Of a stretch of 64,000 nucleotides of DNA, positions 4,299 to 60,312 are shown piece by piece (positions within the stretch are counted from its first letter, which is position 1; every line of letters begins with the position of its first letter). Location of the stretch: the NCBI GenBank assembly GCA_943735955.1, contig OX030956.1:12727894-12791893 (forward strand), written 5' to 3'. Position numbers and translations under genes: made by a program. Origin of the DNA: Piscicola geometra. Lineage: Eukaryota; Annelida; Clitellata; Hirudinida; Piscicolidae. Under the pieces are notes generated by a model. That model did not search any database. It saw only the letters and a program-made list of their open reading frames with translations, and had not been told where the DNA came from.

Positions 4299-4730
4299 AT
4301 GTCGCAACAAACTGCTGGAAAAGTGTTGCCACAATCAAAGGAAGCGCAGTTGAAATCCTATCAGAAACGACTAAAAGATGATATAAAGTCGATGTTTGAC
4401 AACTTTGGAGAGATCTTCAAACTTATTAGAATAGAAGACGAGCCTGTGCTGGGAAGGGCTTCTCAGGCGGAGCAGGACCGTCTGGAAATCGAAGTCAGGT
4501 CTGCAAATATGGTCAAGTCGTCAGAGTCTCTCATGAAACTTGTTTCAGAAATCAAACAATTCCTCATTCTGAACGACTTTGCACAAGTGAACGAATCAAT
4601 TCGAGCCGCTGTCGACTACAACAACAAGCTGACAACTAAGATTGATTCCCATATAATCTCCATTCGGGATGAAATGATTTCTGAGCTCTTTGATCTAGAA
4701 GAAGAATATTATTCTTCTGAATATAAATAA
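4299..4730 (+). CDS. MED22: MED22, Mediator complex subunit 22 (Surfeit-5)
   Basis: Single coding exon of 143 codons. MED22 is a small helical subunit of the Mediator head module that couples activators to RNA polymerase II in the nucleus. Family hallmarks are visible: LPQSKE near the N-terminus, SYQKRLKDDIKSMFDNFGEI, ESLMKLVSEIKQFLILNDF in the middle, and the acidic ending LEEEYYSSEYK. The ORF spans the conserved core. The long variable C-terminal tail of vertebrate MED22 is absent and a stop follows directly. Start is the first ATG, supported by similarity. It lies 269 bp after the UBA3 stop; a polypyrimidine-rich acceptor-like site ending at 4284 sits just upstream, so the 5' UTR may be spliced. 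AATAAA occurs at 4781. Confidence 0.95.
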   Translation: MSQQTAGKVLPQSKEAQLKSYQKRLKDDIKSMFDNFGEIFKLIRIEDEPVLGRASQAEQDRLEIEVRSANMVKSSESLMKLVSEIKQFLILNDFAQVNESIRAAVDYNNKLTTKIDSHIISIRDEMISELFDLEEEYYSSEYK

Positions 4731-14979: not shown

Positions 14980-24547
<9,568 letters not shown>

Positions 24548-43777: not shown

Positions 43778-46153
43778 ATGGGCCAGTATTGCTCTTGTGC
43801 TAAAGGGAAAAGTATGTCAAATAATAAAAATTTAAATTTATTTATTTTGCTAAGCTTTTTTAAATGTAAAAAATTATGCCCATACTTTCAAGATATATTC
43901 TTTATATTTGATATATTGTTTTAGGCTATTGAAGATTTTAAAATCTATTCATGCTTATTCTTTATAAAAATAATTGTAGAATCAAAATATTTAACAGAAA
44001 AAAAAGTACCAGCACACAGAAACAAACCTGTCTCAAAAGATGCTCTATGGCACCAAGAAGCTTTCGACTATAAATCTACCAATCATAAACAAAGTAACAA
44101 ATGCGACAACAATGTTTTCAACAATGGCTTTCAGAACAACAAGATCGACAACAGCATCAAGCCGGAGGGAAACAGTAAATACAATTCTTTAACCTATTCC
44201 ACCTACAACCAATGGTCAAACTACTCACACGACTGCAACAACAGCAGCAGCCATGATATCAACAACAACTGGAACTTCCTCACACACCCCATCAATGCAT
44301 CCTTCCAAGACACACACCTGAACCACAACAACCACGAAGACTACAGTCAGAACAGCCTTTCTCACGACACGAGCACCAATCTCGACCACACCTCCCTCGA
44401 CCATGACTCCTCTCTTCTGACCACCAATGCATCTCACCTTGACCTTGAAGTGCATGCCTATCGACAGAGGAACTCACAAAAAGTGGTTTCCTTGCTGGAG
44501 AAGGTATTGGATTATTTAGTGCAGGTGGTTGACGTTTCGTACATCCAGGCGTACTGTCAAAGGGTGAAGTGGGATGTGGAGAGGGGGATGGTTGAAAAGG
44601 AGGGGGTGAGGAATCTGATGTGGGACGTGCTGACTGGCCAGGAGGGGGAAGACTTTGGCGTATTTTGTGAGTTGTTGAGCGACAATGAGGAGCACAAGGG
44701 TGTGGTGGAGTTGTTGATTTGTCTGGAGGGGATAGTGTCTCTAGTCTCAACCTTCCCACACCCTTCTCAACTGCCATGCCAGCACAACAACCCCCTCTCT
44801 GAGACAAGCTACTTCAGCATCGATCTAGTCACTCCCCTCCAACCTACCATCCACCACACCAACCTCTCATCTAGTATCTCCTTGTGCAGTCTCAATGCAA
44901 AATCTCCCAGTCGTCCACCAATCTTTTTACGCAAGCAACTCCCTGTTCCCCTAGTGGCACTCACACTGGGCCATTTTTGTTTCTGTTCTTCGCAACAGGA
45001 GGGCAGACTGTTGCAGATGCTCTCAGAGTTTCAGTGTCTCCTCGAGCTGGGTCTGGTGCGTTGTAACTTCTCGCAAGAAACTTCTTTCTCTTTTGTGCAA
45101 GCTTTGAGTCTCAACAGGAGTCTGCAAAAGTTGCACATTTCTTCTTCTCCCCTCCATCCTTCCCCTCTCCATCCTTCTTCCTTTCAGCTTTTTCTCCAAG
45201 CGCTCGCAGCCCTCAAACCCACGTTGAAGTCGTTTTCGTTCACGCATTGCCACGCCACCACCCCTCTGCTGCATTCCCTTCTCACCACTCTGTCCACTCA
45301 GTTGTTCTTGCAAGAGTTAGATTTGAGTTTCAACCAACTATCCATCCAACTAACCACCGCTCTCTCCCACCTCCTTGCCACCACCACTACCCTCAAACAC
45401 CTCACCATCAAAAACACCCACCTCACACCCGCCTCTTTCGTTCCCCTCTCCACCTCACTCTCCCACAACTCGACCCTCCACTCACTCAACATCAGCAACA
45501 ACGACTTACAAGACTCCTCCATCAACTCCCTCTCTCACTCACTCATCCTCAACTCCTCCGTTCGCTCCATCAACCTCTCCAACTGCTCCTTCTCTCACTC
45601 CGCAGCGGTTGGCATTTCCAGGCTACTCCGTGCCAACCACTCCATCCAGCAACTCATCATCTCCAACAACCACCTCAACAACCACGCCCTCTCCATCCTT
45701 TCCTCCGGTCTCTGCTACAACCAATCGCTCCTCCATTTGGAAATGGACTCCTGTGGCGTTGGCAACGTCGGCTTCCACCACCTCCTGAAGGCTCTCAAAC
45801 ACCACCGCAGGATCAGGGTGGTCAAGCTCTGTTACAACCTCATCGGCAGGCCAGATGCTGGTGGTGATGGTGGTGATCACAGTGTTGGCGTTAATGGTGC
45901 TCATAGGGGTGATGTTAATGGAAGCAATGGTCAGATTATTAATGAGAAAATTAATTTTTGCACTAATAACACGATTAAAAGTTATATTAATAAAAATAAA
46001 GATAATTCCGCTGATAATAATAATAATAATGGCGTAAATGACGTCATATCGGAAGAGAGCCTTTTCCTGTTGATGAAGGAGGTCCTACATTTGAACCCAC
46101 ATTTGAAACTCGTCCTCAGAGGCAACCAGTTGGCAACCTTGCTAGCCTCATGA
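43778..46153 (+). CDS. CARD-like / leucine-rich repeat protein with N-terminal lipidation signal
   Basis: Proposed two exons, 43778-43811 and 43998-46153 (donor GTATGT, acceptor TTAACAG, phase 1 joined correctly). Exon 2 is open from well upstream but has no in-frame ATG before the CARD-like part, so an upstream start exon is required. Exon 1 gives MGQYCSCAKGK, then KKKV: Gly2 for myristoylation, Cys5 and Cys7 for palmitoylation, and a basic cluster, a classic membrane-anchor layout. Next are an Asn/His/Asp-rich linker (about 44030-44445), a helical domain resembling CARD (VVSLLEKVLDYL ... VRNLMWDVL ... EDFGVFCELL ... GVVELL, about 44480-44730), a linker, and about nine RNase-inhibitor-type LRRs (ELDLSFNQL, SLNISNNDL, SINLSNCSF, QLIISNNHL, LEMDSCGV) at 45080-45850. 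An Asn-rich insert precedes the last repeat. CARD plus RI-type LRRs resembles NOD proteins but no NACHT is present. Function unknown; innate sensing or adaptor role is inference. Confidence 0.75.
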
Positions 46154-56217: not shown

Positions 56218-57722
56218 TTTATGCTGTCTTCTAGATGTGTGTAAATTCATTCAAAACTCGTCTGACAGAGACTTCTCTTGGAAAAGACTTGAGCAATCAC
56301 TACTAATTGATTTTCTTTAATTAATCAATTATGTTATTAAATTAGTTTTAATTGGTTTCTCATAAAAAGTTCGTAATAAAAATATTAATCTAATTATTTC
56401 AGGTAAATCCGAAGCATTTAACTTTGAACTATTCAATAACTTCACCATGACGTGTGTTCAGAAGGATGTGTGCGTGTGTGTATTTGTAGATGTCTCTGCC
56501 AATGTATGTGTGTTTGTATGCGGATGTTTTTGCCAATCTATGTGGGTTTGTGTGCGGATATTTCTGCCAATGTATGTGTATTTGTATGTGGATGTAAGAG
56601 TGAGATATGTGTGTGTTGAAGTGTGCAGAACCTGTTTACGCGCGGCATTAGCGAAGAAATCTGATATGTGCATGTGTGTGGCTCTGTATGTTTGTGTGTT
56701 GTTTTGGGTGTATATGTGCGTAAGAAGTCTATGTGTGTTTTTGGAAGCACTCAGTTATATTGAATTGTATTTAAACTTTTCCACGTCCCATCGAACACTT
56801 GAGAAATGCTCGAACACCTTTTACAAGCCCTAAAAGTTATTGAAGAACACTATTAGTTTTTCACAACTTTAGTTTTTTATTTATTCATCCACTTTTTCCA
56901 CTCATTTATCAATTAGAAAACAATTTTTCAATCCATCTATTCATCCATCCATAAATCCATCTTTCCATCCATCTTTCTATCCATCCGTCGATCCATCCAT
57001 CCATTCATCTTTCCATCCATTTACCCCTCTATCTATCCCTACATTCGTTTTTCCACTCCTAGTATATCTATCCACCTTCTTTTCCAGCACAAACACATCT
57101 AAAAAACTACCGTATAAATATTCCCTTTACACACAGACACTATTTATGTATATACTATTGATAAATATACATCATTTATGCATAGTATACAATAATATAC
57201 AAAATCTCATACTTGTATTTTTGTGCACATCCTCCCATACATGCATGTGTGAGCCAGGCTGTGTTTGAGAATTTATTTTAGCAAACGAAACCTGATATGC
57301 TAGCAAATTGTACAAAACGAGAAATACTGTCTGTATAAATAATATTATTGAGTTATTCTTATTATTAAATGCTTAAAGCTCTCTTTGTCTTTATATTTAA
57401 ACAAATTATTTATTTAATTATATGATATTATGCTAGATTTTGTGTCTATCAATGTTATTTAAGCGCTAAATAACGTTTTTTTCTATTTCCTTGTTTGTTT
57501 CCATAGAAGAACTCTAATTTAATCATCAACGATATCATCATCAACATCGTCATCATCAACAACGACATCATCAGCGTCGTCATCGTCAAATATATCATTT
57601 CTCATTCATTTTCTTTTTTTTAAAATCATAATTCTTCAATCAATCCATTCAATCATTTATTAAAATAAGTGAAACATTTGCGAAAACTCATGAATATTAA
57701 TGAGATTTATATTCCCTTCCAG

Positions 57723-60312
57723 ATGACACGAAAAATCTCAAATCATATGCAAGTCCCTTCACATCACTGTTTTCATCTTCTTCATCCTTAGCCTTTTCCG
57801 GATGGTTGCCTAGAGACAACTACCCTAGCAACGAAGTTAAACTAGAACTACTGAGTAACAAAGGCGATTTAGTCAAAGATACAAGTAACCAAAGATACTA
57901 CGACAACATGGTGGAATTCTTACCTACCTATTTTTCTCATGAAAAAATCGAAAGCGGTGGTGGTGTGTTTGGAGAGCTTGCCACTACAAAGGACATCAAA
58001 AACCCGCTCGCCAATGATCACAATGAAGCTGATAGAAATAACGATGCAAAGGTGACCAGGAAAGGAGAGAACAGTAGCGGACCAGAATCCATGCAAGATG
58101 CCTCTCGACTCGAAACTTACACATCTTGTCATCAAGAAAAATCTTCAAACCACACCACCAATCTCAACGCTGCTCAACCACCAGTTTTAAGTAGCTCCAC
58201 TACCACCTCGAACCACCTCTTCCAAGCCAGCACTGCTACCACACCCCCGTACACCACCTTTTCTACTCACAGCACCATCCATCCTCACACAAACCACAAC
58301 GACTTCATCTTCTCAACCGACCAAGTGGCTTGCGTTTGCGAGGTCTTGCAGTCGAGCAACAACGTCGACATGCTTGACCGCTTTCTCTCGTCTCTCCCTT
58401 CCCCTCACTCGCTGCACCTCCACGAAAGTGTCTTGGTCGCCAGGGCTTTTGTGAGTTTCCATCGACGAGACTTCAGAAACCTCTACCGCCTCATCGAGTC
58501 AGGCCAGTTCAGTCCGCATCACCACCAGCTGCTCCAGGCCCTCTGGCTGCAAGGTCACTACACCGAAGCGGAAAAAATTCGAGGAAGACCGCTCGGAGCT
58601 GTGGGAAAGTACCGCATCAGACGCAAGTTCCCACTGCCAAACTCCATTTGGGACGGTGAAGAAACTTCGTATTGTTTCAAGGAAAAGTCCAGATCGCTCT
58701 TGAAAGACACCTACCTTCACAACTCCTACCCGTCGCCCCGGGAGAAGAAGGCCTTGGCGGAGAGTACAGGTCTGAGCACCACACAAGTGTCCAACTGGTT
58801 CAAGAACCGCAGACAAAGAGACCGAGCCAACGAGCACAAAGAAAAGTTTGCGGGCAGTTTCTTAGTTTGGTGGCTGGATGGATGAGTTGAGATATTTGGG
58901 AGAATTGAACAATTTTATTTTTATTTGAGAAATTTAAGAAACTTAAAAATTGGTTTTAAGTAACTATTAAAGGCGTGTGAAAACACAAAAGATCAAACCC
59001 CTCCCTTGAGTCTAGTATGGTATCAAAACATAAGTTTCAAAGAATCAATCTAAGAAATATGAGTAGATTTTCCTGTTTTTCTTACAATACTTGTGTCGAT
59101 GTATTTTTTAGAATTGATCAAAAATGCAACCTAAAGCATTGAAGAGTATTGAAAATGCATAGATAGACTAACTCACAAATGTATTATTGCAACTTCTAAA
59201 AACATGATCAAATCAAGATTCAAGTATGCATAATTTTTAAATCCAAAACATTGAGAATCTCGTCGCCATGTGCAGTCATTCTTGAGACAGCAGAAGCTTT
59301 AATATTATTAACACATGTGTTTTGTGTGGTCGGCATTAATTTAAAAGGGCCAATCATTAAACAATATTATAACGATAAAATTAATGAGTATTTAATTTCT
59401 TTGACTAATTTAAATATTTTTCAAATTATAAATAATAACATCTTTTAACTGCTTCTTTAATGACGAAGACGATGATGCTAATTATTATTTTAGTTTAATG
59501 TTTATTATTTTTATTCTTCTGGCCGACGAATGACACATGACAAGTGGACGAACAGCCATAAAAAATAAATATTGACTCAGTGCTAACATTTAATATACGA
59601 ATATTAATATTATTAATAAGAAAAAGTTAAACTATATTTCAGACTCTAATTTAATTGACTATGATAATTATATTTAATTTCAAATACTTGATATTTTTAT
59701 TTTTCATGAAAATAAATGTCAGTCATCATCTTGGAACACAATTTTGAATTAGAGAAAACTTTTCAATCAGAAAAAACATAACTAATAATAGGACTAAAAA
59801 TATAAAATAACAAATTATTTTATATTCCGGTTGAAATCGTCCATAGTAAGTAATGGAGGCATGATTAATGGGGGACGATAAAAGATCTGCAGCGGTAAAT
59901 AACTCCACCTTTTAATTGAAGTAATAAATTTTACGCTACACCATTGTATGTGGCAGACTTTCTTTATTCTTTGTAGCATCTTTAAAAGAAGGAAAGCATT
60001 ATGTTATTTGAGTGTTTAGTTTTAAAGGCAACCGAATAAAAGCCCATTGTAAGTTACTGCTTCTCAAATTGAGAGTCTCAATTCATCCCTTTATATGAGA
60101 TATGTTGAAGTGTTTTGGGGTAGAGTAAAGAGGTATGAGGTTTAATAGAGTAGTTAATGTGTGGTTTTGTGTGATAATAATAATAATAATAATAATTTTA
60201 TTTTAATTTTTTAATTAATTATTTCCGTTATGCAGAGAAGCATTGCACAGCGGATCAGAAGACAACACCTTTGATCCTCCCAAAGAATCCTACTATCAAT
60301 TCCTCCCCTACT

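Follow-up and report, generated by a model that had tools for sequence, protein, structure and literature searches.

A CARD-like and LRR protein without a NACHT domain, with a predicted acyl anchor, in an annelid and its mollusc relatives

Most of what is known of CARDs concerns apoptosis and innate signalling, and the NACHT ATPase of NLRs is regarded as the switch that licenses CARD assembly. The ribonuclease inhibitor has neither a CARD nor an acyl signal. NOD1, NOD2 and the other NLRC proteins have the order CARD-NACHT-LRR, and the annelid protein described here (P0001) resembles them in a CARD-type helical domain and in LRRs of the ribonuclease-inhibitor (RI) type, a type it shares with the ribonuclease inhibitor itself. 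Unlike NLRC proteins it lacks a NACHT domain, and for anchoring it has an N-terminal signal predicted to be of the myristoyl type. Acylation of NLRC proteins is described in passages of two papers, according to which NOD2 reaches membranes through S-acylation by ZDHHC5, an attachment said to be necessary (PMC12005342), and both NOD2 and NOD1 are acylated for membrane recruitment (PMC12005342, PMC13286793).

Another system close to this gene is HmNLR of the medicinal leech (PMC7308585); HmNLR and leech TLRs appear in the reference lists of PMC3710617 and PMC12849515. The sections consulted on molluscs give no NACHT found in the Mytilus edulis transcriptome (PMC3308963), four NACHT proteins in Aplysia, one of them with LRRs (PMC9334734), and over 200 NACHT genes in the pearl oyster, where other molluscs typically have 5-20 (PMC9646362). 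None of the amphioxus domain combinations in the passages of PMC2575513 that were consulted is a CARD with LRRs alone. No description of the family reported below was found in the literature searched, including the consulted parts of PMC3308963, PMC9334734, PMC11508797, PMC9646362, PMC8260672, PMC7308585 and PMC2575513.

Gene model and domain layout

The gene lies in a 64-kb window, the whole stretch of DNA analysed (C2:12727894-12791893), of a 171-Mb genome in 66 contigs. The coding part of exon 1 (43778..43811, plus strand) specifies MGQYCSCAKGK, a predicted acylation signal, plus the first base of Lys12; the plus strand at 43778-43817 reads ATGGGCCAGTATTGCTCTTGTGCTAAAGGGAAAA, then the donor gtatgt. 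A phase-1 intron of 186 nt predicted from the sequence (43812..43997, GTATGT...TTTAACAG) begins at the donor A/GTATGT at 43812 and ends in the acceptor tttaacag at 43990-43997, which is followed by AA AAA AAA GTA. The coding part of exon 2 (43998..46153) contains 717 codons counted from 44000, up to the TGA stop at 46151-46153. Joining the two open frames restores the split codon A/AA as Lys12 in phase 1, and the spliced product begins MGQYCSCAKGKKKKV in a frame of 729 codons, the predicted protein P0001 being assigned 729 residues. The first-pass annotation had claimed that a tiny first exon joins in exact phase to a large exon opening with Lys codons, and both points held, the split codon being Lys12 and the basic start KKVPAHRNK. 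Since the first Met of exon 2 is codon 197 of 717, inside the helical domain, an upstream start exon is required. The pattern MGxxxSC occurs twice in the six frames of the window, once at exon 1. When residues 130-420 of P0001 were used as query, the sole relative found was P0002 (E 4.8e-64; 42% identity over 714 aligned positions), and it begins MGQYCSCA, the same first eight residues, though the query excluded the N-terminus. A separate protein has in this way fixed residues 1-8 as firmly as sequence evidence allows, and we infer a transcript that joins exon 1 to exon 2.

N-myristoylation follows a rule of Gly2, an uncharged residue 3 and Ser6. The N-terminus of P0001 has all three, together with Cys5 and Cys7, Lys9 and Lys11-14; it is thus predicted to fit the rule, with the cysteines available for S-acylation and the lysines providing charge. 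An N-myristoyltransferase is encoded in the genome.

Exon 2 opens with the basic start followed by an Asn/Ser/His-rich linker (44000..44428) that is predicted to be disordered (model pLDDT 22-32), in agreement with the Asn-rich linker originally noted. The CARD-like helical domain (residues 144-258; 44429..44773) is placed by predicted helices, alignment to the mollusc CARD and the profile tests given below. The linker from this domain to the LRRs (44774..44956) holds YFSIDL, the counterpart of ISFDIG in the chiton by alignment alone, and the annelid pair P0001/P0002 was not retrieved by a profile built from the linker. The LRR array (44957..45853) is built of strand-helix units and ends in KLCYNLIG. 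Its best PDB sequence match was the RNase inhibitor at 3.5e-28, Foldseek of the full P0001 model returned the LRRs of NLR and RNase inhibitor, and Pfam listed LRRs as the only families above or near threshold in P0001; the excised piece passed the cut-off for both LRR_6 and LRR_1. These results bear out the RI type claimed for the repeats, and P0001 has C-terminal RI-type LRRs as NLRs do. The full model had a mean pLDDT of 50.3, with the LRR part mostly at 70-86. A low-complexity insertion (45854..46045), far shorter in P0002, precedes the C-terminal cap (46046..46150), a helix and then LKLVLRGN, the counterpart of mollusc LKILLWGN. When a profile of the tail was run on 300 shuffles and on 67 proteins not used to build it, P0002 (E 0.0021) came top and P0001 (E 0.0061) next. 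The CARD-like domain and the LRRs lie within one uninterrupted exon, Pfam found no NACHT domain in P0001, and none of the six places matched at E<=1 in a genome-wide NACHT search falls in the window. As first described, the CARD-like segment and the LRRs have no NACHT domain between them. Only one of the six places was over the cut-off, a TANC1-type ankyrin protein, the other five being weaker.

Mollusc relatives and a second member in the genome

Searching with a profile built from P0001 and P0002 gave 63 proteins, for the most part NLRs and LRR proteins of a general kind. Two mollusc proteins among them, P0005 (Candidula) and P0007 (Liolophura, a chiton), share the front half with the annelid pair, and an alignment of these two over 779 positions shows 33% identity. 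For the next search four sequences were combined into a profile that covers the region up to and including the first LRR; it matched at least 44 proteins at E<=1 among the 7997 best word-sharing candidates scored, with P0002 unlisted and a best E of 1.8e-135 for a protein outside the query. All 23 matches that carry an organism name are molluscs (chiton, gastropods, bivalves and two cephalopods), and the remaining 21 are unnamed. One outlier, P0107 (1e-5), resembles RanGAP, P0103-P0106 are short, and the other matches are for the most part full or nearly full. The common order is a disordered linker, a CARD, RI-type LRRs and a GN cap, and in this, with a CARD-like domain where they have the CARD, P0001 resembles the mollusc proteins of Liolophura (LOC135471115), Haliotis and Mytilus; the Octopus protein named 'LRR and PYD domains-containing 2-like' is another relative with this order. 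The Pfam lists of the 44 matches contain a CARD in three and NACHT (PF05729) in none, and the Walker A pattern was found in 0/44. The first-pass annotation had called the architecture unrecognised and had proposed a search for it in other lophotrochozoans; the acyl-type N-terminus, CARD-like helices and RI-type LRRs stood in that order, and the same order recurs in a wide mollusc family. Neither this family nor the second member in the genome was known to that annotation.

The N-terminal pattern MGxxxS[CR] of P0001 is present in 13 of the 44 matches, with Cys7 in 12 of these carriers, and in P0084 it stands at Met16. Another start, M[ST]xCS...NVxR, was found in 6/44 by pattern and in five more by eye, while the remaining proteins have other starts or are truncated. 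From the sequences it looks like an alternative first exon, perhaps of an unanchored isoform. Carriers of this start include P0068, P0071, P0075, P0079, P0086, P0091, P0094 and P0100, from the gastropods Haliotis, Littorina and Nucella and the bivalves Pecten, Crassostrea and Mytilus, with P0086 and P0091 unnamed. Conserved motifs among the 44 are W[KR]FW (42), PPPKPPRLF (30), LCYN (36) and LWGN (37). W[KR]FW is mostly followed by Leu/Phe and Ser/Thr within three residues (38/44), often amid Arg/Lys, and to us recalls a phosphorylation-controlled membrane-binding segment. The mollusc relatives differ from P0001 in a recognisable CARD and in W[KR]FW and PPPKPPRLF, which are frequent among the 44 without being universal; a pattern search found neither W[KR]FW nor PPPKPPR in P0001 or P0002, and P0001 has an Asn-rich tether. 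On a whole-family profile, 16 non-family LRR proteins score above P0001.

No close copy of the window gene was found in the 171-Mb genome, and the family is not expanded there. When the chiton protein P0007 was searched against the whole genome, contig C10 scored highest at 84 bits, with a same-frame stretch at 31.1 bits, the window gene scored 60.5 bits as second of six places, and three further places reached at most 23.5 bits. An exon model of the C10 gene (G000:C10, L028:6436-1730, minus strand) has a separate first exon, MGATNSHSSK, that ends in phase 1 and is of the same kind as exon 1 in the window, with the donor A/GTATGC as against A/GTATGT. The model further contains a Lys-rich stretch, LKPPKPQRPKS, Asn-rich inserts and mollusc-like LRRs. 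The C10 LRRs scored 116 bits against P0007, the window protein 80.5 bits, which places C10 nearer the mollusc type. In an LRR tree of 32 proteins C10 grouped with the molluscs (84/63), P0001 and P0002 formed a pair on a long branch, and this pair was joined to the molluscs and C10 against the outgroups at only 73/46. In the test for a CARD, C10 reached 4.0 bits where the highest of 1000 shuffles reached 3.3, and it is absent from the five places of the genome-wide CARD search, so that its CARD is unrecognisable. Judged from sequence, the genome appears to hold two diverged members, of which the window gene kept the CARD-like domain and C10 the proline-rich and LRR features, and a division of labour between them is possible. 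The window gene would be the more diverged, having kept the anchor signal and CARD-like domain and not WKFW or PPPKPPR.

Three of the five CARD places were over the cut-off in this six-frame search, which proceeded exon by exon and can miss split domains. CARD matches are located at C9:3311079, C16:689170, C6:5675939 and C6:6947220. A match over the cut-off on C9 lies 1.9 kb upstream of a caspase exon on the same strand, and one under it on C16 (18.5 bits) lies 3.0 kb upstream of another, also on the same strand, as expected for CARD caspases. On the minus strand in the C6:5675939 region (L004), a CARD exon of 44.8 bits is followed by a coiled-coil-like exon and, by eye, a kinase-like exon.

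Nature of the helical domain

Helices were predicted at 2-33, 36-45, 57-69, 76-83 and 87-108 of the domain, five main helices where six had been claimed, and a model folded with 21 other proteins had a mean pLDDT of 81.3 and a pTM of 0.70. The domain is strongly conserved between P0001 and P0002 and aligns to the mollusc CARD in the same place, with similar length and helices. Direct searches with the P0001 domain returned no CARD: Pfam gave no match to PF00619 and as its sole match Imm5 at 0.095, the PDB sequence search matched Elongator subunit 1 at 0.22 and 0.67, and a search of the own genome at E<=10 found the domain itself alone and none of the genome's CARDs. Foldseek with the domain model found nothing at E<=0.001, the first row of the VIA fold list was a sodium-channel pore, and the fold lists contain weak rows for PYD and the FADD death domain.

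The mollusc domains gave a clearer answer. Among 18 helical pieces taken from 40 aligned proteins (P0005, P0007, P0065-P0102), 16 matched Pfam CARD at E<=1, the best at 1.1e-7. A profile of the mollusc domain searched against PDB was led by a pair of designed proteins, at 0.0039 and 0.086, of which the latter is stated to derive from 1cy5; below them came seven Apaf-1 CARD sequences at 0.10-0.13 and three ribosomal S12 rows. By these matches the mollusc domain is identified as a CARD. The P0001 region scored 11.5 bits against the mollusc CARD profile (E 0.032), short of the HMMER inclusion line, as compared with 8.3 bits for the best of 1000 shuffles, and P0002 scored 9.7 bits (E 0.11). Alignment of the annelid pair to the CARD with hhalign gave 27.1, covering helices 4-6 only. 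None of 300 column-shuffled annelid profiles reached this score (maximum 21.4), but when the CARD profile was shuffled instead, one or more of the 300 versions scored 28.5, above 27.1. Of 17 segments taken along the annelid alignment, two scored 27-28, both on the helical domain, and the others at most 20.4. The CARD assignment of the P0001 domain is thus made because its mollusc relatives match Pfam CARD, its direct similarity being weak, and the CARD profile search proposed by the first-pass annotation succeeded for the molluscs and not for the domain of P0001 itself. The claimed CARD-like character is consistent with helices in the expected places and profile scores above the shuffles, and it found no counterpart in Pfam or in a significant fold match.

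Proposed mode of action, alternatives and genomic surroundings

P0001 is best explained, with a probability of about 0.6 for structure and mechanism jointly, as an intracellular CARD-LRR protein of a lophotrochozoan family, tethered to the membrane, devoid of an NTPase and serving as adaptor or sensor; membership of the family deserves greater confidence than this and an immune role less. Gly2 would be myristoylated during translation and Cys5, Cys7 or both S-acylated, and with the help of the adjoining Lys cluster the protein would be held at the inner face of the membrane. The LRR horseshoe may bind a partner or ligand, or fold back onto the CARD. Since assembly cannot be driven by an NTPase here, signalling is proposed to start by membrane clustering, in which anchored molecules would gather in the plane of the membrane, their CARDs would meet and other CARD proteins would be recruited; control would then be through location and clustering. 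Candidate partners in the genome include the CARD exons near caspase exons on C9 and, more weakly, C16.

A different reading is that of a membrane scaffold without an immune role. Here a complex at the cortex or in cilia would be organised by the LRRs together with the acylated N-terminus, and the helical domain would be either a generic helical bundle or a CARD that serves assembly outside immunity. The PDB matches illustrate that many non-immune proteins, axonemal ones among them, have RI-type LRRs, the family is not expanded in this genome, and the mollusc motifs W[KR]FW (42/44) and PPPKPPRLF (30/44) resemble what we presume to be membrane and SH3-type docking sites. This reading is nevertheless rather unlikely, as the mollusc relatives have a CARD and CARDs belong mainly to apoptosis and innate signalling. 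It is also conceivable that molluscs and annelids share the LRRs and N-terminus alone and that the P0001 helical region replaced the CARD; the missing Pfam and fold matches, the failure to match the genome's own CARDs and the want of a clear CARD in C10, the closer relative by LRR, point that way. We consider it unlikely, given that place, length and helices are those of the mollusc CARD, that P0002 conserves the domain strongly, that profile scores exceed the shuffles and that the weak fold rows include PYD and the FADD death domain.

Descent from a CARD-NACHT-LRR protein that lost its NACHT exon, with the product now acting on true NLRs as a brake or a decoy, would agree with LRRs most like those of RNase inhibitor and NLRs and with the CARD-NACHT-LRR proteins reported for oyster, abalone, lingula and tubeworm in passages of PMC11508797. 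However, an order without NACHT is found again in a chiton, in gastropods, in bivalves and in cephalopods, so that any loss must be ancient, and this genome yielded no recognised NLR, the sole NACHT match over the cut-off, of six at E<=1, being of TANC1 type; such a degenerate origin is improbable. That exon 1 is a chance open reading frame is the least credible of these possibilities and very improbable indeed: the intron is AT-rich and its acceptor has a short pyrimidine tract, but P0002 has the same eight first residues, exon 2 has no Met before codon 197, and phase and donor agree with the modelled C10 gene.

Returning to the tethered CARD-LRR adaptor or sensor, the presence of similar unnamed proteins in many molluscs suggests a design that appears real, old and unstudied. 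More tentatively, and with less than even odds, molluscs and annelids may share an old innate sensor with a CARD and no NTPase, acyl-anchored and acting by two-dimensional clustering in the membrane, with mollusc alternative first exons switching between anchored and unanchored forms. If true, a lipid anchor would replace the NTPase switch and constitute another way to control death-fold signalling. Such a family would matter in groups with few true NLRs or with none found, as indicated in the consulted parts of PMC9646362 and PMC3308963, and oysters, mussels and leeches offer a direct test of the idea.

The window contains several other genes. Head-to-head with the gene described here, about 600 bp away, is a minus-strand gene running from 43180 down to about 41500, which we take to resemble calcineurin B homologous protein, a myristoylated kind. 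Two long LRR exons on the minus strand (14980-19899 and 21527-24127) have very large low-complexity insertions of Asn/Asp/Ser/Thr; Pfam lists LRR_8 in both and TIR in neither. A one-exon Med22 open reading frame (4299-4730, plus strand; Pfam 2e-29) and a SIX-type homeobox gene (57704-58885, plus strand; SIX1_SD 2.3e-42 in Pfam) are also present.
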